Of a stretch of 64,000 bases of DNA, positions 2,802 through 46,628 are shown piece by piece. Position numbers and translations under genes: made by a program. The stretch is from Acidithiobacillus sp. AMEEHan (GTDB taxonomy: Bacteria; Pseudomonadota; Gammaproteobacteria; Acidithiobacillales; Acidithiobacillaceae). Each line of letters opens with the position of its first letter. Within the stretch, counting starts at the first letter, position 1. The notes under the pieces were generated by a model that saw only the letters and a list, made by a program, of their open reading frames with translations, was not told where the DNA came from and did no database searches. The stretch spans positions 248,001 to 312,000 of the forward strand of contig NZ_CP118747.1 of assembly GCF_030996345.1 (NCBI RefSeq), in the 5' to 3' direction.

Positions 2802-3289
2802 AGACCCCAGAAGTCCTCTTTCTTTGTACCGGCAATGCCTGCCGCTCCATCCTCGCCGAAGTCACCCTGAATGGCTTGGCGCAAGGAAAGTTGCATGCCA
2901 TCAGTGCCGGCAGCCATCCCGCTGGCTACGTCCATCCCCGCAGCATCGCGCTTCTGCAACGCGAGGGCTTTGCGACGGAGGGGCTCTCCAGCAAGTCTTG
3001 GGATGATCTCCCCAGCGCGCCGGACATCGTCATTACCGTCTGCGCCAGTGCCGCCGGAGAAACCTGCCCCGCCTACCTCGGCCCCGCCATCCGCGCCCAC
3101 TGGGGGGTGGAGGATCCCGCCAAGGCAACGGGCACTGAAGCCGAAATCGAGGCGGCCTTCGACACTGCCTACCGCATCCTGCGTCATCGTATCGAGGCCC
3201 TGTTGGCGCTTCCCGTTGCCGAGCTTCTCGAGAAGGATCCCAAAGGGCTGCACCGGGAATTGGAACGCATCGGTCATCTGGAGGCCTGA
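2798..3289 (+). CDS. arsC: Arsenate reductase, low-molecular-weight phosphatase fold
   Basis: A 163-residue LMW-PTP-like ArsC that reduces arsenate to arsenite for export by ArsB. The CX5R loop is C10-TGNAC-R16, followed by S17. The redox relay cysteines are C82 and C90 (VCASAAGETCPAYLG), equivalent to C82/C89 of the pI258 enzyme. This suggests the thioredoxin-coupled type and not the glutaredoxin-coupled R773 type. The protein is about 30 residues longer than pI258 ArsC, with an extra charged C-terminal helix (EALLALPVAELLEKDPKGLHRELERI). It overlaps arsR by 4 bp and lies 9 bp before the VOC gene. Confidence 0.93.
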   Translation: MKTPEVLFLCTGNACRSILAEVTLNGLAQGKLHAISAGSHPAGYVHPRSIALLQREGFATEGLSSKSWDDLPSAPDIVITVCASAAGETCPAYLGPAIRAHWGVEDPAKATGTEAEIEAAFDTAYRILRHRIEALLALPVAELLEKDPKGLHRELERIGHLEA

Positions 3290-3298
3290 GGAGAAGAA

Positions 3299-3775
3299 AT
3301 GTCAGCAATGGATACTATCTTGGTTCCGGATACCCAGGAGTTTCACCTGAGCTTCCGGGTGAGCGACCTTGCCCAGAGCACGGCCTTTTATCGGCAATTC
3401 TTGGGTGTGGAGCCCAAACAGCAGACGGCGCGCTTCAGCACCTTCATCGTCCCGGATCTGCGCCTCAATCTGGTGATTCTGGTCAACGATCGCGAAGAGC
3501 CCCTGGATACCTATAGTCTCTACCACGTGGGCCTGGGGGTCGGCAGCAAGGCGGCGGTGATCGAGACCTACCATCGCGCCGTTGCCGCGGGTGCGGAAGT
3601 GGTCAAGCCGCCGCGCAGTACCTGGCGCGGTACCCCCCTACACGAACTCTGGCTGCGCGATCCCACCGGCTACCTGCTCGAGATCTACGCCCGCATGACC
3701 CCCGAGGAACTCGCCCAGATGCCCGCCGACCAGGAACCGATCTATTTGGTGCCGGGAACCGCCCCGCAAGTTTGA
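3299..3775 (+). CDS. VOC-superfamily (glyoxalase/ArsI-like) protein of the ars operon
   Basis: A 158-residue vicinal-oxygen-chelate protein. The N-terminal module (FHLSFRVSDLAQSTAFYRQF, then GVEPKQQTARF) resembles the ArsI/CadI C-As lyase group. Probable metal ligands are H16, H76 (YHVGLGV) and E128 (YLLEIYA). ArsI binds trivalent organoarsenicals through a cysteine pair before the last strand; here the matching stretch is PRSTWRGTPLHELWLRD and the whole protein contains no cysteine. It could be a dioxygenase-like enzyme on another substrate, or an ArsI relative with altered chemistry. Start ATG at 3299 (a second Met at 3308), preceded by GAGGAG. It is probably in the arsRC transcript. Confidence 0.75.
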   Translation: MSAMDTILVPDTQEFHLSFRVSDLAQSTAFYRQFLGVEPKQQTARFSTFIVPDLRLNLVILVNDREEPLDTYSLYHVGLGVGSKAAVIETYHRAVAAGAEVVKPPRSTWRGTPLHELWLRDPTGYLLEIYARMTPEELAQMPADQEPIYLVPGTAPQV

Positions 3776-3799
3776 ACGGCCACGAAAACGGCGTAGGCT

Positions 3800-3821
3800 T
3801 TGCCCTCTGAGAGGAGGGCAA
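3800..3821 (+). promoter_or_regulatory. Hairpin covering the ribosome-binding site of the sigma-factor gene
   Basis: TTGCCCTC (3800-3807) and GAGGGCAA (3814-3821) form a perfect 8-bp stem with a 6-nt loop. The Shine-Dalgarno sequence GAGGAGGG for the ATG at 3827 lies in the loop and 3' arm. The fold would hide the ribosome-binding site, and it lies 24 bp after the VOC stop. It could act as a translational switch or as a weak terminator; there is no T-run. Confidence 0.5.
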
Positions 3822-3826
3822 GAGTC

Positions 3827-4414
3827 ATGGGTGAGGGAGATGCTCTGTCGGAAGGCGCTGTACCCTGCGCCTTGCTGGCCTGGCAGCAGACGGAACGGGA
3901 GCTGCACAGCTTTTTGCGGCGCGAGCTCTCCGCTTTGGCCGATCCTTGGGAGGCCGATGATCTCTTGCATGAAATCTTTTTGCGCCTTCTCCGTCAGGGA
4001 GGGCGCTTTTGTGCAGTGGAAAACACCCGCGCCTGGCTCTTTCAGGTGGCGCGCAATCTTTTGGTGGATTACCAACGCCGCGCCCGCCCCAGCTCTGAAT
4101 TGAGCGAAGATCTTGCGATGGAGTCGGAAGAGCCATCACCTTTGGCCGAATTGGCAGAATGCCTTCCGGTGGCCATGGCCGGCTTGTCCGATGAGGATCG
4201 CGACGCCATCACCCAGTGTGATCTCTCCGGGCTGGGGCAGGCGGAGTACGCCCGCTCCCTCGGCCTCTCTCTGCCTGCCGTCAAGTCGCGGCTGCAACGC
4301 GCCCGCGCCCGCCTTCGCGCCGAATTGCTGGATCATTGCGGTGTGCGTTTCCATCCCGATACCGGCCAAGTTTGTTGCCACGGCAGTTTTACTGCCAAAC
4401 GAGGCAAAGGCTAG
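3827..4414 (+). CDS. ECF-type (SigZ-like) sigma-70 family factor
   Basis: A 195-residue alternative sigma factor. Region 2 spans about residues 20-88: SALADPWEADDLLHEIFLRL, then ENTRAWLFQVARNLLVDYQRR. Region 4 spans about 113-165: LSDEDRDAI..., GLGQAEYARSLGLSLPAVKS and RLQRARARLRAEL. A 30-residue tail carries C171, C183 and C184 (HCGVRFHPDTGQVCCHG), which might bind metal or sense redox (inference). The ATG at 3827 is chosen over an upstream TTG at 3800 because GAGGAGGG lies 7-9 bp upstream of it. No anti-sigma gene is adjacent. The following genes (Tat protein, CMD protein, channel) are likely its targets or operon partners. Confidence 0.85.
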   Translation: MGEGDALSEGAVPCALLAWQQTERELHSFLRRELSALADPWEADDLLHEIFLRLLRQGGRFCAVENTRAWLFQVARNLLVDYQRRARPSSELSEDLAMESEEPSPLAELAECLPVAMAGLSDEDRDAITQCDLSGLGQAEYARSLGLSLPAVKSRLQRARARLRAELLDHCGVRFHPDTGQVCCHGSFTAKRGKG

Positions 4415-4524
4415 GCGCGCGGGCTGCGCATCCCCCAGCCGCCGCGCGGCAAGCGATCCGCCCTGCATCTTTTTCGAATATCCTGCGTCTACCTGCTGTC
4501 GACCAAAACATGGAGGAGACTTTC

Positions 4525-5493
4525 ATGGATCGGAGAAGATTTTTGTTGACCGGCGCCGTTGCGGGCTCGGGGGTGCTCTTATCGCCCCTTGGCATTGCCG
4601 GGATGGGACAAGGAGCGCAGGTACGGGAGTACGCGGCTTTTCCGCAGAGTTATGTGGTCGAGTTTCGGGTGCCACCGCCGCAACAGGAAGCTACGGTGGC
4701 AGCCGTCGCCAATCTCGTGCAAGAGCTCTCCGCGCAGAAAGGCTTTTTAGGCGCGACCCTCAAGCAGATGCAGGGGGAGTCCACCATGGTCAAGAATTAT
4801 CCACCAGTACTCAAGGGGATGCTGGCGCAGGCTGACGTTGATGCGAGCAAAGCAGGTCGCTTGCCCTATTTCAACGTGCTGCTGCTGCGCTTTGCGCAGC
4901 AAGAACTGTTGCCGCGGGCGCAACTGGATGGCTGGGTGCAGAATCGGCTTACTCCGTTGCTACGATTCACTCCTCCGGGCGCAACCGAATCTGCAGAGTT
5001 TCTGCCCTTGACCGGGATTTACGCGTCGCTGATTGCTGGTGATCGCGAGGCCATCTACTCCACGACCGATGCCATCGCCGGATTCCTCGCGCGGCAGGAA
5101 GACCAACCCAGCAAGAGTTGGGTGACCGTCATCAATCATGTCGCCGTACCCGACAGCGTGCGGGAGGAGCTGGAAGCCAAGGTGGCGCCCTTGCTGCAGG
5201 TGGCGCAAAACACCTACGAGCCCAAGGATGATCCCAATGGTCTGGGGCGTCCCGGCAGTCGGGACAACAGTGACTATCGCAAGGCGGTGAGCACCGAGAT
5301 TCTGGTCAATACCGAGCCCAACGGTGCGTTGCGCAGTTATCTGATGCACGGCGTCTGGGAATCGGTCTGGGATCACGAAAACTCCCACCTGGATCCTCGT
5401 TTCCAACAGTCCTTTATGGCAGTGGCGCCGTATGTGGTCTCCGGCCCGGTGGAGCCTTTCTACCACACCTTGTACTTGCAGAATCGCGTCTAA
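4525..5493 (+). CDS. Tat-signal exported protein of unknown function
   Basis: A 322-residue protein beginning MDRRRFLLTGAVAGSG, a twin-arginine signal (RRRFLL) followed by a hydrophobic stretch ending near GIAGMG. This implies export of a folded, possibly cofactor-bearing protein to the periplasm. The mature part has no family I recognise with confidence. The first 100 residues (YVVEFRVPPPQQEATVAAV and QELSAQKGFLGATLKQ) vaguely recall antibiotic-biosynthesis-monooxygenase (dimeric ferredoxin-like) folds. The C-terminal half contains DHENSHLDPRFQQSF. The start is set by GGAGGAG ten bases before the ATG at 4525. It lies between the sigma factor and the CMD-family gene, 30 bp upstream of the latter. 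Confidence 0.6.
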   Translation: MDRRRFLLTGAVAGSGVLLSPLGIAGMGQGAQVREYAAFPQSYVVEFRVPPPQQEATVAAVANLVQELSAQKGFLGATLKQMQGESTMVKNYPPVLKGMLAQADVDASKAGRLPYFNVLLLRFAQQELLPRAQLDGWVQNRLTPLLRFTPPGATESAEFLPLTGIYASLIAGDREAIYSTTDAIAGFLARQEDQPSKSWVTVINHVAVPDSVREELEAKVAPLLQVAQNTYEPKDDPNGLGRPGSRDNSDYRKAVSTEILVNTEPNGALRSYLMHGVWESVWDHENSHLDPRFQQSFMAVAPYVVSGPVEPFYHTLYLQNRV

Positions 5494-38311: not shown

Positions 38312-41300
38312 TTACTGATTTTGGATGAGGAATTGCGGTTTGCGTATCCGGTGCGGACGCGCAACAGCGGCATACAGAACGGGTGCTGCCCACAAGGTCA
38401 TGACCGTTGCCACGAGCAAACCACCCATTACCGAGATTGCGAGAGGTTGCAGCAGATCGGTACCGTGGCCGATACCAATGGCGAGGGGTAGAAAGCCAAG
38501 AACATCGGCCAGCATGGTCATGAGGATTGGGCGCAGCCGCTGGCGAGCAGCGAAGGCGACCGCAGCAAGGGGAGGATGATCGCCGCCCAGTTGTCGCGCT
38601 CGGGAAAAAATGAGGATCACATTGTTCACGGCAATGGCAAAAACCAGCAGCAATCCCAAAAACGCCGTGCTATCGAGATCGTTTCCGGTCATCCACAGCG
38701 TAAGCAGGGCACCCGGAGCAGCCAGGGCGATGGCAAAAATCGCCACGGTGGCAGCGCGTTGGCTGCCGAGCTGAAAACCCATCAATACCAAAAGAATGCC
38801 GAGCGCGGCAAACAGGATCAGGGTCATTTGCCGAAAGCTTTTTTGCTGCTCCTGGTAGTAGCCGGCAATGCTGCTCGAGATAGTGTCGGGTAACTGCATT
38901 TTTTCGATAATGGCGCTGGCCTGCGCGGCTGCCGCAGAGAGCCCCTCGCCGGCACGAGGACTGAGTTTGATGGCGGCGTACGGTACGAGATTTTGATGCG
39001 TGACATAGGGTACTACCCCCTCCAAGCCTAGCCGGGCAGTTTGCGAAAGTGGCGCCAGGGTGCCACTCGGCAGATGGACCAGGGTATTGGCAAGACTATC
39101 GGGAGCCTGATCACGATCGCTTTTTACCGACACCTGGATGGGCAAAATTTGCTCACCGTGCAGCAAGAACCCTGCCGGGCGGCTCCAGAAATGCACTTTC
39201 AGGGCATCGGCGATGGTGCTTGGCGTAAGACCTTCCATACTGGCCATACTGCGTGGAAAAATTCGCCATTCCGGGCCCGAGGATGGGGCTTTCAAGACCA
39301 CCGACTGGAAATGCCCACTAGCCCGCAGGGCTCGGTACAAATGCAGCCCTTCTTGCTGCAATTGTCTCGAACTCGAGCCGAATAGCTCGATTTCCAGCGG
39401 TGCGTGAGAGCCAGACAGATTCCCCAGGCGGTTCATCATGATCTGCATGGTCTCGAGGGTAGTGAGATCCGGGACGGCGGCGCGAAAGGCTTGGCGTAAT
39501 CGAGCCATGACCACTTCGGTGCTCTGCGCATGATCGGGCTTGAGCACTATGGTCAAAGCGCCTTTGTTGGGAGTTGCGTAGGCATTGCCAAGACCACGTC
39601 CGACCACCAGAGAAACCCGCTCCACGTTGGGGTTCTGCAACGCAATGTGCATCAGATCACGGCCGACCTTTGTCGTCTCCGCCACGCTGCTACCCACCGG
39701 AGTGCGGAAGGGAACCGCGAAAATCCCCTCATCCCAGTGCGGCAGAAATGCCGTCGGCACCTGACTGGCGCCAACGGCGCCGGCGGCAAGCAGGATGACG
39801 ACCAGGGGAAGCACTAGGATCGGACGCCGCATGCCCCGCAGCAGGAGGCGGCTGTAATTCCGCCGCAGCCAGCGCTCTCCCCAGAGCCGGTGGGTATGCC
39901 GGGCGCGATTGGCAATCCACAGTGCAAAGATGGGCGTTACCGTCATAGCAATCAATTGTGAAGTGACCAGGGCAATCACGATGGCCAACGCCATGGAACG
40001 AAACAAAAGACCGACGGTGCCCGACAAAAAGACCAGAGGCAGAAAGAGGATGCAGGCAGTGAGGGTAGCCAGGGTCATCAGCGGCAGGATCTCTGTGATG
40101 CGCTGCAGCGCCATCGCGCGGCGTTGCTTGGCGTCGCCATGAACCCCATGGGTACCCCGTTCCACAATCACGATGGCATGATCAACCAGTGCTCCGATGG
40201 CCGCCGTAATGCCCCCCAAGGTCATGATATTGATGCTGAAACCAAGTCCCTGGAGGACCAGCAAGGTGCTCGCAACGGCCAGGGGAACCACGGCCAGAGT
40301 CGCCAAGGCTCCGTCCCAGCGTCCAAGGAACAGAAACACGATGCAAAAGGCAATGAGGGTTCCCAGGCCCAGGGCGGCCCAGACATCCCGCAGACTGGAA
40401 TGGATCAGCTGACTGAGATCATAGATGGGGACCAGATGCATCCCTGGGGGTAGGTGTTGCGCCAGTTCTGTCAACCGCCCCTGGACCGCCGCCGCCACCG
40501 CCGACTGGTTGGCGCCCTGTTGAGCGCTGATATCCAGGATCAGGGCATGGCGGTACCCTGCCACTGCCGCATCGCGAATTCTTGGCGGCGGACCGACATG
40601 AATCGTTCCGAGATCTGCCAAGGGTACAACGGCGCGCAGTCCGTTGGACTGGATAGGACCAATCGGGATCGGTGTCTTGCCCAAATCCGCGACACTCTCG
40701 GGTCGGGGAGTGGTTGCCAGAATATACTGTTGATGGAAGGAGTGCAGTATCCCCGAAAAGTAGGGACCTTGCTGCGTCCGCAAGGCGTCGATGACCGCGT
40801 TGCTCGAGACGTGATAGGCAGCCAGACGTCGTTGCTTCAGGTCCACATGCACTTGGGGCCAGCCACGTCCGGTCGCATCGATATGGTAGACCCCCGGTAG
40901 AGAGAGGATGGCCGGGCGAATGCCGTAGGCAAAGGTCGGCATCATTGCGGAGCTGCTCTGGCTGTTGGACACCAAGGCATATTCCAGCAAGGGATAGATG
41001 TTTGGGGTCATGAGCCGCACGCTCATGCTTGCGCCCGGCGGCAGGGCGATCTGGGATAGTCGCGCCTGCAGCAGTAAATAAGCCTGTTCGGGCGCGACAT
41101 TAGGGCTGAAATAGACGTGGAGCTTGCTCAGTCCAATGCCCGTTTGGGAGCGCACCGTAGTCACCCCCGGCTCGCCTTTGGCCGCGTCCTCCAACGGCCG
41201 AGTGACCTCCAACAACATGAACTTGACCGGCAGATTTTGGGTGTGCACCAAAATTGCCACTTTCGGGAAATCTACCGCAGGAAAAATGCCTTCCGGCATC

Positions 41301-41398
41301 CGCGTGAATGCGTAGTACCCCGAGCCCAGCAGCAACACAACCAAGAGCAGCAGGGTAAAGCGGCTGCGCCACAAAAAATCCAGATACTGGCGGATCAT
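38312..41398 (-). CDS. RND-family efflux pump inner-membrane transporter
   Basis: A 1,028-residue RND transporter with 12 TM helices in two homologous halves. It starts MIRQYLDFLWRSRFTLLLLV and has the porter segment RPLEDAAKGEPGVTTVRSQ. TM4 region GITAAIGALVDHAIVIVERG carries the acidic proton-relay residues in the form seen in heavy-metal (CzcA/CusA) pumps. The second half has FAIAVNNVILIFSRARQLGG and LGFLPLAIGIGHGTDLLQPL. It differs from AcrB in this TM4 motif. The substrate cannot be fixed: metal ions, hydrophobic compounds or lipids. It is the last gene of a five-gene operon and its start overlaps the adaptor stop by 4 bp. Confidence 0.92.
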   Translation of the reverse strand: MIRQYLDFLWRSRFTLLLLVVLLLGSGYYAFTRMPEGIFPAVDFPKVAILVHTQNLPVKFMLLEVTRPLEDAAKGEPGVTTVRSQTGIGLSKLHVYFSPNVAPEQAYLLLQARLSQIALPPGASMSVRLMTPNIYPLLEYALVSNSQSSSAMMPTFAYGIRPAILSLPGVYHIDATGRGWPQVHVDLKQRRLAAYHVSSNAVIDALRTQQGPYFSGILHSFHQQYILATTPRPESVADLGKTPIPIGPIQSNGLRAVVPLADLGTIHVGPPPRIRDAAVAGYRHALILDISAQQGANQSAVAAAVQGRLTELAQHLPPGMHLVPIYDLSQLIHSSLRDVWAALGLGTLIAFCIVFLFLGRWDGALATLAVVPLAVASTLLVLQGLGFSINIMTLGGITAAIGALVDHAIVIVERGTHGVHGDAKQRRAMALQRITEILPLMTLATLTACILFLPLVFLSGTVGLLFRSMALAIVIALVTSQLIAMTVTPIFALWIANRARHTHRLWGERWLRRNYSRLLLRGMRRPILVLPLVVILLAAGAVGASQVPTAFLPHWDEGIFAVPFRTPVGSSVAETTKVGRDLMHIALQNPNVERVSLVVGRGLGNAYATPNKGALTIVLKPDHAQSTEVVMARLRQAFRAAVPDLTTLETMQIMMNRLGNLSGSHAPLEIELFGSSSRQLQQEGLHLYRALRASGHFQSVVLKAPSSGPEWRIFPRSMASMEGLTPSTIADALKVHFWSRPAGFLLHGEQILPIQVSVKSDRDQAPDSLANTLVHLPSGTLAPLSQTARLGLEGVVPYVTHQNLVPYAAIKLSPRAGEGLSAAAAQASAIIEKMQLPDTISSSIAGYYQEQQKSFRQMTLILFAALGILLVLMGFQLGSQRAATVAIFAIALAAPGALLTLWMTGNDLDSTAFLGLLLVFAIAVNNVILIFSRARQLGGDHPPLAAVAFAARQRLRPILMTMLADVLGFLPLAIGIGHGTDLLQPLAISVMGGLLVATVMTLWAAPVLYAAVARPHRIRKPQFLIQNQ

Positions 41399-42396
41399 GG
41401 CTGTACGACGACCTGGGTATCGTCACGCAGGCGGGTGTTGTTGCGCAAAATGACTTTTTCGCCGATGTGGATGGGTCCGGCAATACGCGCCAAGCCCTTC
41501 TGACTACCGAGCACCGTCACCGCGACGGCCTGTGCCGTGTGTCCGTGCAAAACAAAAATCTTTTCCTGGGCACCGCGGCTGATGACGGCGTCCTCAGGCA
41601 CCGCCAGGGAGTGCACAGCCTTTTCCGAAAAATGCAGCGTTACCCATTCGCCAGGGAGCAAAGGACAATCCGCCGGAAGGTTTACCATCACCTGCAGCAA
41701 GCCAGAACGGTTTGCCCGTTCGGCAATGTTGCGCAGCGTACCACTTCCTTTCCAGCCGTCCCCTTGGATGGCTACCGCAGCCGCGTTGTCCAAGTAACGG
41801 GCTTGCTCCGGGGGAAGAAGGGCCTCAGCCCAAGGCTGACCGCGCCCGCTGAGGGTAGCGATGGGAGTACCGGCGCTGACCACTCCCCCCGGGGCGATCA
41901 GGTATTGGATCGTACCCGAAAAAGGCGCGACCAGCCGTCCCGCGGACTGCTGCGCCTCCAGGGCGCGTAGATTGTCTTCCGCCTGCGAACTGCGCAAGCG
42001 ACTGGACTCCTCCATCGCTCGGGAGATGATACCATCGCGCAGCAGCTGCTGATTGCGGAGCAGATTTGCTCGGGCATAAGCGACCTCTTGCCGACCAGCC
42101 AAGAGCTGTGCCGTCAAACCGGCGGGGCGGACGCGAGCGATGATGCTGCCCTTGCGGATGTGTCCCGCAGGCGGGAAGGGACCCACGACCCGACCCGTTA
42201 CTGGTGCCGTCAACGAGAGTTCCCCAACGCTTCGGATCTCGCCGGGATAGGACAAACGCGTTTGCCAGGACACAGCCCGCACGCTGGTCAGGGTGACCGG
42301 GACACCCATCGCCCAGGCGGGAACTGCGCCAAACCAGAGTAGTGAGACAAGGAGTAGGCGGAAGGAGTTGTTCGCGGGGAGGATACGCCGTTTCAT
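41395..42396 (-). CDS. RND efflux periplasmic adaptor (membrane fusion protein)
   Basis: A 333-residue adaptor, short for the family. A signal peptide (LLLVSLLWFGAVPAWAMG) is followed by a beta-barrel and split lipoyl halves (APVTGRVVGPFPPAGHIRKG and APFSGTIQYLIAPGGVVSAG) around a short alpha-hairpin (ANLLRNQQLLRDGIISRAM). The C-terminal membrane-proximal domain ends VILRNNTRLRDDTQVVVQP. The ATG at 42396 overlaps the tolC-like gene's stop by 4 bp. The frame is open upstream but has no homology there. Confidence 0.9.
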   Translation of the reverse strand: MKRRILPANNSFRLLLVSLLWFGAVPAWAMGVPVTLTSVRAVSWQTRLSYPGEIRSVGELSLTAPVTGRVVGPFPPAGHIRKGSIIARVRPAGLTAQLLAGRQEVAYARANLLRNQQLLRDGIISRAMEESSRLRSSQAEDNLRALEAQQSAGRLVAPFSGTIQYLIAPGGVVSAGTPIATLSGRGQPWAEALLPPEQARYLDNAAAVAIQGDGWKGSGTLRNIAERANRSGLLQVMVNLPADCPLLPGEWVTLHFSEKAVHSLAVPEDAVISRGAQEKIFVLHGHTAQAVAVTVLGSQKGLARIAGPIHIGEKVILRNNTRLRDDTQVVVQP

Positions 42397-43748
42397 GTGG
42401 GAGGATTTCCTTCTCCAGGATACTGTCCGGTGTCCAATTCCAGTTGGTCCTGCGTCATGGCACTGCGAATTTGCGCACTGGCAAGCGCCAACCGCGCCTT
42501 GACCCAAGTGCTCTGCGCCTGGGCGAGATTGAGGGCATTCATCGCCCCCGCAAAGAACCCCTTGCGGGTCATGACGTAGATGCCGTGCGCCTGCGCCAGG
42601 GAGATCCGCGCATTTGCTTGGTCGCGACGCGCCACCTGTGCCAAGCCGTAATCTGTGGCGATGGCACTGTAGATTTGCAGGCGCAGGGCTTGCCTGGTCG
42701 CTTTCAGGGCCGCCAGTTGTTGCTGCGCTGCAGCGATTTGTTCCCGTCGTTGCCCAAAACCGAAGAGCTGCCAATGGAGACGAAGTGCCGCCTGCCATCC
42801 CAGGTCTCGGCTCTCGGGCACAGTCACCGTATCTACTCCGTAAGCAACGGAGCCCTGCAGCGATGGCAGCAAGCTACTGCGTTGCACTCCTACACGGGCC
42901 TTTCCGACCTCGATCTGCTGTGCAGCAAGGTGCAGTACCGGCTGATTCCGGTCGGCCTGTGCCTCCAGAGTCGCTCGCTTGGGAAGAGGACTTTGCAGAG
43001 AATGGGGGAGAGGCAAGTGCAACGGCGTCGATGGTGCCAAACCAACCTGCAAGTTCAGGAAGCGGGAAGCAGCATCTGCCTCTGCCTGGGCATCCTGCAG
43101 CCCGCTACGTGCCTGGGTTAGCAACGATTCCGTCTGCAGTACATCCAGCCGCGATGCCGCACCGGCCCGGTAGGCCTTTTGGGTGTCCGCAAGCAAGGTA
43201 TCGGTGTCTGCAAAGGTACTCTGCCAGATTGCGAGACGTTTCTGGGCCAGAGCAAGTTGGTACCAAGCATTGAGCACTCGGGCGGCTACCCGCAGTCGGG
43301 CGTTTTGCTCGGTTGCCGTCGCAACGTCTACTTGTCCTCTCGCTAGCTTGCGCAGCGCCCAGAGTTGGGGAGCATACAGGGGCACGGAAACGGCGAATTG
43401 CCCAATCACTTCCCGAGGACCATTGGCAGACACAAAGAGGGGTTGCTGGTTACGGCTCTGCGACCAGATGCTGGCAGTGTTCAGAGACAGCTGCGGCAGT
43501 ACTGCAGCGCGAGAGGCCTGCAGCAAGTCGGCATCCGCCTTGCGCAAATGTTCGGCAGCACGGACTTGCCCTTGACTGGCCAAGGCGTCCTGTATCGCTG
43601 CTTGCAAAGACAAGGTTTGCGCCGAGCCGGCGGGCGCCAGCAGGAGCCCGCATAGGGCGAGAAGAGCGGATTGACGGGTTTTGAGGCAGCGGAGGCGATC
43701 TCCCAAACGCAGCGGGGAGGTCCGTGCCATGGGTAATGATTTTGTCAT
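42393..43748 (-). CDS. TolC-family outer-membrane component of the RND pump
   Basis: A 451-residue outer-membrane efflux protein. A signal region ALLALCGLLLAPAGSAQT precedes LSLQAAIQDALASQGQVRAA. Two OEP repeats are visible, with conserved segments such as VSVPLYAPQLWALRKLARGQ, KAYRAGAASRLDVLQTESLL and the second-half MTRKGFFAGAMNALNLAQAQ. The ATG at 43748 comes one base after the stop of the M56 gene; an ATG at 43730 is an alternative. It is co-transcribed with the adaptor and pump. Confidence 0.9.
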   Translation of the reverse strand: MTKSLPMARTSPLRLGDRLRCLKTRQSALLALCGLLLAPAGSAQTLSLQAAIQDALASQGQVRAAEHLRKADADLLQASRAAVLPQLSLNTASIWSQSRNQQPLFVSANGPREVIGQFAVSVPLYAPQLWALRKLARGQVDVATATEQNARLRVAARVLNAWYQLALAQKRLAIWQSTFADTDTLLADTQKAYRAGAASRLDVLQTESLLTQARSGLQDAQAEADAASRFLNLQVGLAPSTPLHLPLPHSLQSPLPKRATLEAQADRNQPVLHLAAQQIEVGKARVGVQRSSLLPSLQGSVAYGVDTVTVPESRDLGWQAALRLHWQLFGFGQRREQIAAAQQQLAALKATRQALRLQIYSAIATDYGLAQVARRDQANARISLAQAHGIYVMTRKGFFAGAMNALNLAQAQSTWVKARLALASAQIRSAMTQDQLELDTGQYPGEGNPPT

Positions 43749-43749
43749 T

Positions 43750-44646
43750 CTACAGCAGTGCCCAGAATTCCGACCAGGTCATGTTTAACAAGGGTTCGAG
43801 CAAGGTCTGCCCATAGAGTGCTCCCAACAACATGCTGATAGAGAATGGAAGAGCAAGCAGCAGGAGCAGGGTGGACTCCCGTCTGGGCACGCGGCGGCGG
43901 GATTTTTCTTCCGACAACGCTTGGGGCTGCAAGAGGCGTTCGATACGCAGTTGCAATAGCTTGCCGTCACTGATCAGCGCCGGCGAGATTCCCATGGGAT
44001 ACGCGGTCTGCGAGCCTTTTGCGCTGCCCGATTCCTGTAGGGTTTCCAGGATTGCCGCCGCGAGATCTTCCCCCGCTACCCCCGTGCGACAGGCCTCCGC
44101 ATCTCTGGCGCATTCGAGCGCCGCGAGCCAAACCCGTAGCCTGTGCAGGGCTGCGGGCCAGGGCCACTGTAAATCGGTGACCAACTGCGCCAACCAGATC
44201 CGCAACGGATCATAATGTTGCGCATGGGCCTGCTCATGAGCCCAGGCCGCCTGTATCTGGGCATTGTCCAGCTTGCGTGCAAAAAAGGGCGAGAAGACGA
44301 TTCGCGGACGCAAGAAACCGGCAGTACAAATCAGCAGCTCCGGGGAGTCGAGAAACAACGCCAAAATCGCCCGATACGTTGCCCGGGCGGCTACCAACAG
44401 GAAGGGGAGGCTGAGAAACACCAAGATGGTGTGATCGAGAGGCCAAGGAAGCGGATCGGGTTCGATGGCCGTCCAACCGCACAACCACGCAACGATGAAC
44501 AGCGTGGGAAGGAACGGCGCCCATAACTGCAGCCAAGCACGGCGCTCCGCCTCTTCGCTGCCCAAGTCAGGAGGCAGGTGCGCAGGTAGAGCGGCGAAAA
44601 AATGCAGCGACAATCCACCGAAAAGCAGGATGAATATCATCAGCAT
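43750..44646 (-). CDS. BlaR1/MecR1-like M56 membrane metallopeptidase lacking a sensor domain
   Basis: A 298-residue integral membrane protein with TM helices at about 1-20, 41-60, 70-95 and 270-290. The zinc-protease motif H137-E-Q-A-H141 (AWAHEQAHAQHYDPLRIW) sits in the cytoplasmic loop, as in BlaR1/MecR1. The extracellular penicillin-binding sensor of BlaR1 (about 250 residues) is missing: the protein stops soon after the last TM helix (MTWSEFWALL). It presumably cleaves or triggers cleavage of the BlaI-like repressor encoded just upstream (inference). The start ATG at 44646 follows GGAG; an ATG at 44640 is possible. Confidence 0.85.
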   Translation of the reverse strand: MLMIFILLFGGLSLHFFAALPAHLPPDLGSEEAERRAWLQLWAPFLPTLFIVAWLCGWTAIEPDPLPWPLDHTILVFLSLPFLLVAARATYRAILALFLDSPELLICTAGFLRPRIVFSPFFARKLDNAQIQAAWAHEQAHAQHYDPLRIWLAQLVTDLQWPWPAALHRLRVWLAALECARDAEACRTGVAGEDLAAAILETLQESGSAKGSQTAYPMGISPALISDGKLLQLRIERLLQPQALSEEKSRRRVPRRESTLLLLLALPFSISMLLGALYGQTLLEPLLNMTWSEFWALL

Positions 44647-44650
44647 CGGA

Positions 44651-45049
44651 TCACTCCTGCCCCGTGGATTTCTTATGCTCAAGGATGGCCTTGCCAAGCT
44701 CCTCGAGGAGGGAGGGATCAATTTCTTCTGCCGCCTGCACCAAGGCTGCGACGGTATGCTGCGGGTTTGTGCCCAGGAAGCGAGACAAAAGATTCCGCGC
44801 CCGCGACCGCTCTACCGTTTCCCGCTTTACCGCCGCACGATACACAAAGGTGTTCGCCCCGCGCACTTCCCTCACGATCAAGCCTTTTTCGCGCAGCCGA
44901 TCCACCACCTTGGCAGTAGTCGTGTATGCCCGTGGCACGCGAGTCGAAAGTTCGTCGTGCAACTCGCGCACAGTGGCAGCGCCAAGCTCCCAGAGGGTGG
45001 AGAGCACTTCATATTCGAGATCATCGGCAGGGAGACGGAATCGGTTCAT
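44651..45049 (-). CDS. BlaI/MecI/CopY-family transcriptional repressor
   Basis: A 132-residue winged-helix repressor (Penicillinase_R family). The core is LEYEVLSTLWELGAATVREL, HDELSTRVPRAYTTTAKVVD, RLREKGLIVREVRGANTFVY. The remaining helices (ARNLLSRFLGTNPQHTVAAL...) form the dimerisation and protease-sensitive region. It has no CopY-type CxC metal hook. It is the first gene of the operon blaI-M56-tolC-adaptor-RND and probably represses it. No Shine-Dalgarno sequence is visible before the ATG at 45049, which lies almost at the inferred transcription start, so a leaderless mRNA is possible. Confidence 0.88.
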   Translation of the reverse strand: MNRFRLPADDLEYEVLSTLWELGAATVRELHDELSTRVPRAYTTTAKVVDRLREKGLIVREVRGANTFVYRAAVKRETVERSRARNLLSRFLGTNPQHTVAALVQAAEEIDPSLLEELGKAILEHKKSTGQE

Positions 45050-45098
45050 GTAGTAACGCTACGACATTGATCGTAGAGAAGCAAGACCCGCCCCAAGG
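45050..45098 (-). promoter_or_regulatory. Candidate BlaI operator and promoter of the efflux operon
   Basis: A perfect inverted repeat CTACGA (45059-45064), 6 bp, TCGTAG (45071-45076) lies just upstream of the repressor gene. An overlapping GTAG...CTAC repeat lies at 45050-45062. On the minus strand TTGCTT, 17 bp, TAGCGT can be read as -35/-10 with the repeat in the spacer. This resembles BlaI/MecI operators (TAC...GTA symmetry). Confidence 0.55.
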
Positions 45099-45386
45099 CT
45101 GCCTCATACCCCGATTTGTTCGCAGACTTACAGTGCGCCCTCTGCTTAGATCCCGCCAAGCCAGGAATTCTCATTCGCGTTATAAGTGGAGTTTTTAAGC
45201 CATCTGATCCAGCCACGAATTCGACTCAATCGGAACTTCTGTCGAGAGCGCAAGGGCCTGAGCCGTCAACAGTACCGCACTATACCTTCTCTTGACATAT
45301 AGCTGATTATAATTTTCATCAATGGGTGTCAATAGATCAAACGCGGACGTTTGCTTCCGACTCTCGCTAGCCGATCATAGCCAACT
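45099..45386. other. AT-rich intergenic region
   Basis: With the operator region this makes a 337-bp gap between blaI and the TolC-like gene. TTGACA and TATAAT elements occur near 45293-45315 but are only 10 bp apart, so they are unlikely to form one promoter. No gene is seen. Confidence 0.4.
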
Positions 45387-46628
45387 TCAAGAAAGCTGCA
45401 AAGAGCGCAACTTAGCCTCCTCAGAAACCAATTTATTAATGACAACGCGGTACTCATGCGCATCATTTTCGATTAAAACAGTAGCACGTTTTGAAATCTT
45501 ACGTAACGGCCCGTAAGCCTCTGATAACCTTTTCTTGTAGATCATTTCTCTAGCCCTCAGAAACTGAATTTTTCTAATGAGCATCGGGCGCTGAATCTCC
45601 CCTATCTTTTTGTCAATCCTTTTTTCGAATTCATCATGTTGTAACTTTTCGATGATGTTATCTCTCTCCAGAGAAAGTCGCTCATCCTCATGTCGAACTG
45701 CGCCCATAATATCAAAAGGAATATTGACGTAGAGTCCAGCGATAATTGCCCATTTCGTTCTACCTGCATCAGGATAGTATGAAGGCCGCACAAATCCCTT
45801 TATTTTTACATCAACAAACCGCAGCCAACCCAATGATCTTTGATCGTGATAATATTGGATTAACCCTGCGATTCCTGGATGCAAAAATAACTCAGAACGG
45901 ACATCTAGAGACTTCCCTGCTCTAATTACCTTTGGCAAAAGCGGCTTGAATGGCTTGAGTTGAACGCCAACAGTTTTTTCAAGCTCATGGAGAATGAGCT
46001 TTTCTTTCATCTCGTACAAATACTCAGACAGCCGCAATCGATTGCACGAAGTCCCCAATCTACGTGACAAAGCATCTACAATATTAATGCGAAGAATAGT
46101 ATGTAATTGTTTTCTGAGTTTATAGAATCTCCAGTACTTTAAGTACAGATTTTCTATAGTCTTTCTTTTTCTTCTCATTGCAGCATCATAATCAGAAATC
46201 TTCTGATAGTAGGCAGGCCGCACTTGATCCATGATGTGCCGCATGTACTTATTCCCGCCGAATAGATAGTATTTGAATCCGAGTTTTGGCTTTGCCTCTA
46301 TCGATCGTGGGATTCCATCACTGGTAAAGTGGGTATACTGTCCAGCTTTAACCCTACCCTGAAATATTACCGAGCTTTCTGCTTTGAGCATACGAATGGT
46401 TTGCTCAGCAGCAAGCACTTTATTTCTCGCCACTTGAATCTCGGGTGCTCTGCGTTCCATTCGTATAATATCACGTAAGGTCATCACTGGCGAAGCAAAG
46501 CAAAAATTGACGGTCAAGATGCACACGCCGCATGCTATCAAGCTATGTAGGAGTGGTCTGTTCCATCGGTTTTGCGACGAAGCTAGGGATTGATCTAACC
46601 CGCCGAGAACATCACCTAAGTATATCAT
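45387..46628 (-). CDS. Divergent TolC-like outer-membrane protein
   Basis: A 413-residue protein. The N-terminal hydrophobic segment (LIACGVCILTVNFCFASPV) followed by MTLRDIIRMERRAPEIQVAR and NKVLAAEQTIRMLKAESSVI matches the start of outer-membrane efflux (OEP) proteins, but the rest is strongly diverged and rich in Lys, Arg, Ile and Tyr. Only one clear alpha-hairpin repeat is recognisable. The composition is far more AT-rich than the flanking core genes, which suggests horizontal acquisition. No partner transporter lies next to it on the same strand; the RND operon ends at its 3' side but is separately promoted. Confidence 0.6.
   Translation of the reverse strand: MIYLGDVLGGLDQSLASSQNRWNRPLLHSLIACGVCILTVNFCFASPVMTLRDIIRMERRAPEIQVARNKVLAAEQTIRMLKAESSVIFQGRVKAGQYTHFTSDGIPRSIEAKPKLGFKYYLFGGNKYMRHIMDQVRPAYYQKISDYDAAMRRKRKTIENLYLKYWRFYKLRKQLHTILRINIVDALSRRLGTSCNRLRLSEYLYEMKEKLILHELEKTVGVQLKPFKPLLPKVIRAGKSLDVRSELFLHPGIAGLIQYYHDQRSLGWLRFVDVKIKGFVRPSYYPDAGRTKWAIIAGLYVNIPFDIMGAVRHEDERLSLERDNIIEKLQHDEFEKRIDKKIGEIQRPMLIRKIQFLRAREMIYKKRLSEAYGPLRKISKRATVLIENDAHEYRVVINKLVSEEAKLRSLQLS

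Follow-up and report, generated by a model that had tools for sequence, protein, structure and literature searches.

A tripartite RND efflux pump in the window, the 64,000-nucleotide stretch of DNA analysed here, appears to be controlled by a proteolysis-driven, self-regulating switch made of a BlaI-type repressor and an M56 membrane protease, with a metal or another substrate the likely signal; we put the probability of this reading at roughly 0.7. At rest, a BlaI dimer would occupy the site TACGAY-N4-GTCGTA between the -35 and -10 elements and block transcription of blaI-m56-OMF-MFP-RND. Envelope stress, most likely in the form of a metal or another substrate of the pump, would activate the four-helix M56 protein, which would then cut the dimerization region of BlaI at the predicted A102/L103 site (the equivalent of N101/F102 in S. 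aureus BlaI). Loss of intact BlaI would relieve repression, so that switch and pump would be produced together. As M56 lacks a periplasmic sensor domain, it would have to receive the signal by way of its membrane part, the short outer loop with the P-D-P motif, or a partner.

Organization of the operon

The five minus-strand genes (Table 1) are tightly coupled: 4 nt separate blaI from m56 and 1 nt separates m56 from the gene for the outer membrane channel (OMF), and the OMF/adaptor and adaptor/RND junctions are 4-nt ATGA overlaps. Pfam and NCBIfam matches identify all five products that the initial annotation had named (BlaI, M56, TolC, adaptor and RND), and domains and coupling together support its view of a single operon with a BlaI repressor and a BlaR1-type protease that has no sensor. 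The extent it gave, 38312-45098, is right for the genes; its upper limit takes in the promoter, with blaI itself beginning at 45049. It is also correct that no beta-lactamase is in sight, as we identified none in the operon. Matches to PF13354 elsewhere in the genome were rejected as beta-lactamases because E. coli and other control genomes match too.

Table 1. Features of the BlaI-M56-RND operon (window coordinates).
Feature	Position	Strand	Description
blaI	44651..45049	-	BlaI/MecI/CopY-family repressor, 132 aa; PF03965 E=2.3e-22
m56	43750..44646	-	M56 membrane metalloprotease, 298 aa, ATG start; PF05569
OMF	42393..43748	-	TolC-type outer membrane channel; PF02321 1.8e-36
Adaptor (MFP)	41395..42396	-	Periplasmic adaptor; TIGR01730 124 bits, cut-off 94.9
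RND permease	38312..41398	-	1028 aa; PF00873 1.2e-182
Predicted BlaI operator	45060..45075	-	TACGAT-CAAT-GTCGTA; one base changed from consensus TACGAC-N4-GTCGTA
Inferred promoter	45056..45084	-	-35 TTGCTT, 17-bp spacer holding the operator, -10 TAGCGT

The TM4 motif of the permease is IGALVDHAIVIVE. Its scores fall under the cut-offs of both the CusA/CzcA heavy-metal RND model (TIGR00914, 350.7 against 701.45) and the HAE1 multidrug RND model (TIGR00915, 321.3 against 940.35). Upstream of the operon lies a 413-aa ORF (45387-46628, minus strand) with a GC content of 42%, compared with 59% for the window; it has no match in Pfam or NCBIfam, and a 38% homolog is found near the pump ortholog in one other locus (L051).

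An M56 protease without a sensor domain

The M56 match (PF05569, 34.8 bits against a cut-off of 31) is the sole domain of its protein, and Pfam and NCBIfam reveal no transpeptidase or penicillin-binding domain. The HEQAH motif singled out earlier is present. Like BlaR1, the protein is a gluzincin with HExxH and ExxxD motifs, and the zinc ligands and helpers of BlaR1 (H201, H205, D210, E242 and D246; PMC9834060) correspond at a constant offset to H137, H141, D146, E178 and D182, residues that are invariant among 14 M56 proteins and spaced exactly as in BlaR1. The near-invariant Tyr261 of BlaR1 has no evident counterpart here (Leu195 by pattern). Hydropathy places four main membrane segments at residues 2-20, 43-61, 69-98 and 259-277, as would fit the four TM helices of BlaR1, and the chain ends about 20 residues past TM4, whereas BlaR1 continues into a C-terminal penicillin-sensing domain. 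The P-D-P motif of the short outer loop is conserved, and the loops hold no obvious Cys/His/Met metal motif.

The predicted structure is of modest confidence (pLDDT 65.6). Its closest match among 996 chains (VIA) is BlaR1 (8exs, rmsd 5.4 over 199 residues) with a Z of 7.5, a value below 8 and so no proof alone; the second is ZMPSTE24 (Z 5.6), a metalloprotease structurally related to BlaR1 (PMC9834060), and all others fall below 4. Foldseek alone returned nothing at E<=0.001 for this model, and a profile of the M56 subfamily found only chance matches among the sequences of solved structures. As read from its sequence, the protein appears to be the catalytic and membrane part of BlaR1 without the beta-lactam domain.

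Predicted operator and promoter

The consensus TACGAC-N4-GTCGTA recurs in 11 relatives at the equivalent position before blaI. Throughout the alignment of 12 blaI promoters the operator lies inside the 17-bp spacer, its last two bases open the -10 element, and the start codon follows 6 nt past the -10, a distance suggesting that the blaI mRNA is probably leaderless. About nine of these promoters have a clear -35 element, and those of L033, L035 and L038 a weak one; a generic sigma-70 scan did not flag the blaI promoter of the window.

The window operator is the sole exact match in its 2.63-Mb genome. A genome-wide search with two mismatches gave 147 matches against 466 in the control and is dominated by chance, so we claim no wider regulon in this genome. 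Among the loci, 618 kb in total, the exact operator is confined to blaI promoters and to a site before a TonB-receptor-like gene in L045. It is single-copy in nine of the ten relatives' genomes that match (2.9-5.5 Mb) and stands at blaI in eight of those nine, and a reversed-operator control had zero matches in all ten. Two genomes depart from this pattern: in G406 the sole exact operator stands at a TonB-receptor-like gene and blaI has a variant with one mismatch 150 bp upstream, and in G399 there are three exact operators, at blaI, at a pump and on a short contig (L080:821). A further genome, G405, is operator-free, but its contig lacks the promoter, beginning only at m56. The operator in L045 (2965-2980) precedes a 788-aa TonB-dependent-receptor-like protein (3044-5407); an orphan BlaI-M56 pair lies 6.6 kb away. 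A different long palindrome (CCGAT...ATCGG core, arms up to 16 bp) precedes more distant blaI genes (L022, L025, L026, L028 and L032), which suggests two operator classes that follow the BlaI clades.

The strongest sequence evidence for control of the pump by BlaI in trans is a natural one and comes from G399, where the BlaI-M56 pair (L037) and an MFP-RND-OMF operon (L079) are found on different contigs. The L079 permease is 91% identical to that of the L042 pump, which is linked to BlaI-M56, and the L079 operon carries TACGACCGATGTCGTA just ahead of the adaptor start codon, so that pair and pump operon both have the exact operator. Such retention of the operator by a pump separated from the pair argues that BlaI governs the pump and is not a mere neighbour. 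The initial annotation had placed the pump under BlaI, and the operators at the window promoter and at the G399 pump both speak for that control.

Relatives of the regulator pair and their pumps

When 84,980 bacterial and archaeal species genomes were scanned for a peptide pattern, 13 loci emerged with an M56 protein 40-49% identical to that of the window, all in uncultured proteobacteria. The gene upstream of m56 encodes BlaI in each of the 12 loci where the contig covers it, the two frames overlapping or touching, and an RND pump follows the pair in 10 of the 13 (the exceptions being L034, L037 and L045). The close M56 subfamily occurs in one of 398 genomes of the phylum, that of the window; more distant BlaI-M56 pairs were found among 369 genomes of the class, and a plasmid collection held no match to the window M56 or RND. 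The five-gene order, which the initial annotation had proposed surveying in other genomes, recurs as in the window at L022, L025, L026 and L027, and L028 has a distant pair with MFP-RND. In all, BlaI-M56 pairs stand directly upstream of RND pumps at about 15 other loci, a recurrence that shows the arrangement not to be one of chance.

The pumps behind these pairs differ widely. The window permease is about 25% identical to those of the relatives, and the RNDs linked to BlaI-M56 form at least four groups in a tree: the family-core pump of the window, an ADD-motif pump in MAGs, a Czc-type group (L025, L027) and a Cus/Czc group (L022, L026, L028), near which the L044 permease also falls. The TIGR00914 cut-off is passed by the permeases of L022, L025, L026 and L027, and those of L028 (cut by the contig end) and L044 lie just under it. 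Because pairs precede at least four RND lineages, BlaI-M56 behaves as a control module coupled, time and again, to different RNDs.

Given the same diversity, the pairs need not share a chemical signal, as would suit an M56 protein that monitors pump assembly or the state of the envelope (an unassembled adaptor or lipid stress, for example) and never senses the pump substrate. The missing sensor domain and the co-transcription of m56 with the pump are in keeping with such monitoring. However, no pump adjoins the pair in G399 or G406, and an operator before a TonB-receptor-like gene, as in G406, is better suited to an external solute, and we regard this alternative as unlikely.

The repressor and its predicted cleavage site

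The window BlaI (PF03965, 80 bits against a cut-off of 22.6) is 53-63% identical to the BlaI proteins of 12 M56-linked relatives. In S. aureus, BlaI is cut at N101/F102 and BlaR1 cuts itself at S283/F284. Alignment places the BlaI site at A102/L103 of the window protein, with Leu103 invariant in 13 of 13 sequences, and the BlaR1 site corresponds to A223/L224 of the window M56 by the equal ten-residue spacing to R234 (R294 in BlaR1), with Leu224 and Arg234 invariant in all 14. A hydrophobic P1' residue at both the BlaI site and the autocleavage-loop position is a property shared with BlaR1-BlaI, Phe there and Leu in the window, and such matching would be expected of a protease with one specificity for both sites. 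We predict on this basis that M56 probably cuts BlaI.

Should BlaI sense the inducer itself through CopY-like allostery, M56 would be an accessory or would act on another substrate. BlaI, MecI and CopY belong to one family, in which CopY binds metal directly (PMC5772342), and the CopY/TcrY equivalog is the NCBIfam model closest to the window BlaI, though at 50.1 of 121.95 bits it lies far under the cut-off. CopY copper repressors thus share the fold family of the window BlaI but differ from it in having the C-terminal CxC hook; the window protein has no cysteine at all, CxC is absent from all 13 BlaIs compared, and the protein has a protease partner. The lack of cysteines argues against CopY-type sensing, as does the coupling of the BlaI and M56 frames in every relative that shows both, pump-linked or not, and we consider direct sensing quite improbable.

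A family-core pump with a newcomer regulator

RND matches about 60-72% identical to the window permease are present in 25 of the 28 other genomes of the family (several partial at contig ends), and the OMF-MFP-RND order is kept in all 15 family loci read. None of the 28 has BlaI or M56, and a search of the 15 pump loci that allowed up to one mismatch found no BlaI operator. By sequence comparison, the pump is a core component of the family and the BlaI-M56 pair is a newcomer. The family itself appears to consist of acidophilic sulfur oxidizers. In several genomes of one sister genus, a two-component system stands upstream of the pump ortholog (L055-L059, with a truncated kinase in L060), and the L058 pair exceeds heavy-metal cut-offs (regulator TIGR01387, 300.4 against 279.2; kinase TIGR01386, 407 against 292.55). 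A pump retained across the family, a pair found nowhere else in it and a two-component system in the sister genus point to acquisition or exchange of the regulator. One same-genus genome has a CueO-like oxidase directly upstream of the pump ortholog (under the equivalog cut-off, 436 of 525), and orthologous pumps in L046, L047 and L050 have no adjoining regulator. In L050 (G011:C45:3038-6115) the orthologous RND is present as a second copy, interrupted by two in-frame stop codons.

Because a heavy-metal two-component system precedes the same pump in the sister genus, we favour metals before lipids or drugs, and a metal is our best guess for the inducer. This leaning also draws on the CueO-like neighbour, on the Czc/Cus pumps that follow other BlaI-M56 pairs and on the copper-driven PetP/PetR system; against a metal substrate, the window pump falls outside the heavy-metal and HAE1 models alike. 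That the sensor-less M56 reads a metal or pump substrate in or at the membrane, with BlaI proteolysis controlling RND efflux, we hold at even odds.

Comparison with known systems

In the BlaR1-BlaI (MecR1-MecI) systems of S. aureus and B. licheniformis the BlaI repressor likewise lies in its own operon, but those pairs control a beta-lactamase or PBP2a, whereas the window pair precedes an RND pump, and the operators differ. The earlier description of the window operon as antibiotic-resistance logic reused for efflux is not supported: nothing shows beta-lactam ancestry, and sensor-less BlaI/BlaR-type pairs exist elsewhere. BlaR homologs are present in several phyla, and those of several marine bacteria have a role said to "remain to be elucidated" (PMC10141476). 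By its description, the PetR-PetP system of Synechocystis is a similar pairing of a BlaI-like regulator with a BlaR1-like membrane protease outside beta-lactam resistance; there a copper signal leads to degradation of the regulator, which controls plastocyanin and cytochrome c6 genes and acts as an activator too (PMC7896320). The CusRS-CusCBA-type efflux system of the sister genus has the same orthologous OMF-MFP-RND, with a kinase and response regulator in place of BlaI-M56.

Each part is thus known, as is sensor-less BlaI/BlaR-type control in cyanobacteria; its use for RND efflux appears to be new, and we found no description of BlaI-M56 control of RND pumps in the open-licence literature searched. 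If correct, the switch would be a third route for inducing tripartite metal or drug pumps in Gram-negative bacteria, besides two-component systems and metal-binding repressors, one that unrelated RND pumps have repeatedly adopted, and would make proteolytic derepression an established means of RND induction in these bacteria. The circuit bears on signal detection by M56 proteases that have no sensor domain; it is compact, with an operator predicted at the base level and, in relatives, nearly a one-operon regulon, and the sister genus, with a heavy-metal kinase ahead of this pump, offers a natural control.

Wiring of the pair and a decayed copy

That the pair is a recent, poorly wired acquisition and the operon effectively constitutive or silent is the least probable alternative: the pair's presence in one of 29 family genomes, a decayed partial copy elsewhere in the genome and the departure of operator and -10 from the relatives' consensus would fit it, but all catalytic and BlaI family residues are intact and both operator spacing and the 17-bp spacer are kept. 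Since blaI and m56 resemble the pump genes in base composition, composition cannot date the acquisition.

The decayed copy, which spans the promoter, blaI and the start of m56 (window positions 44584-45199), lies 2.1 Mb away (L006:6726-7262; G000:C1, ~2,398.7-2,399.3 kb) at 82-92% identity. Its blaI has lost about 26 codons in frame, its m56 ends after about 28 codons and its operator spacing is altered. A small contig (L007:2-385) repeats this decayed blaI/m56 copy with a frameshift.
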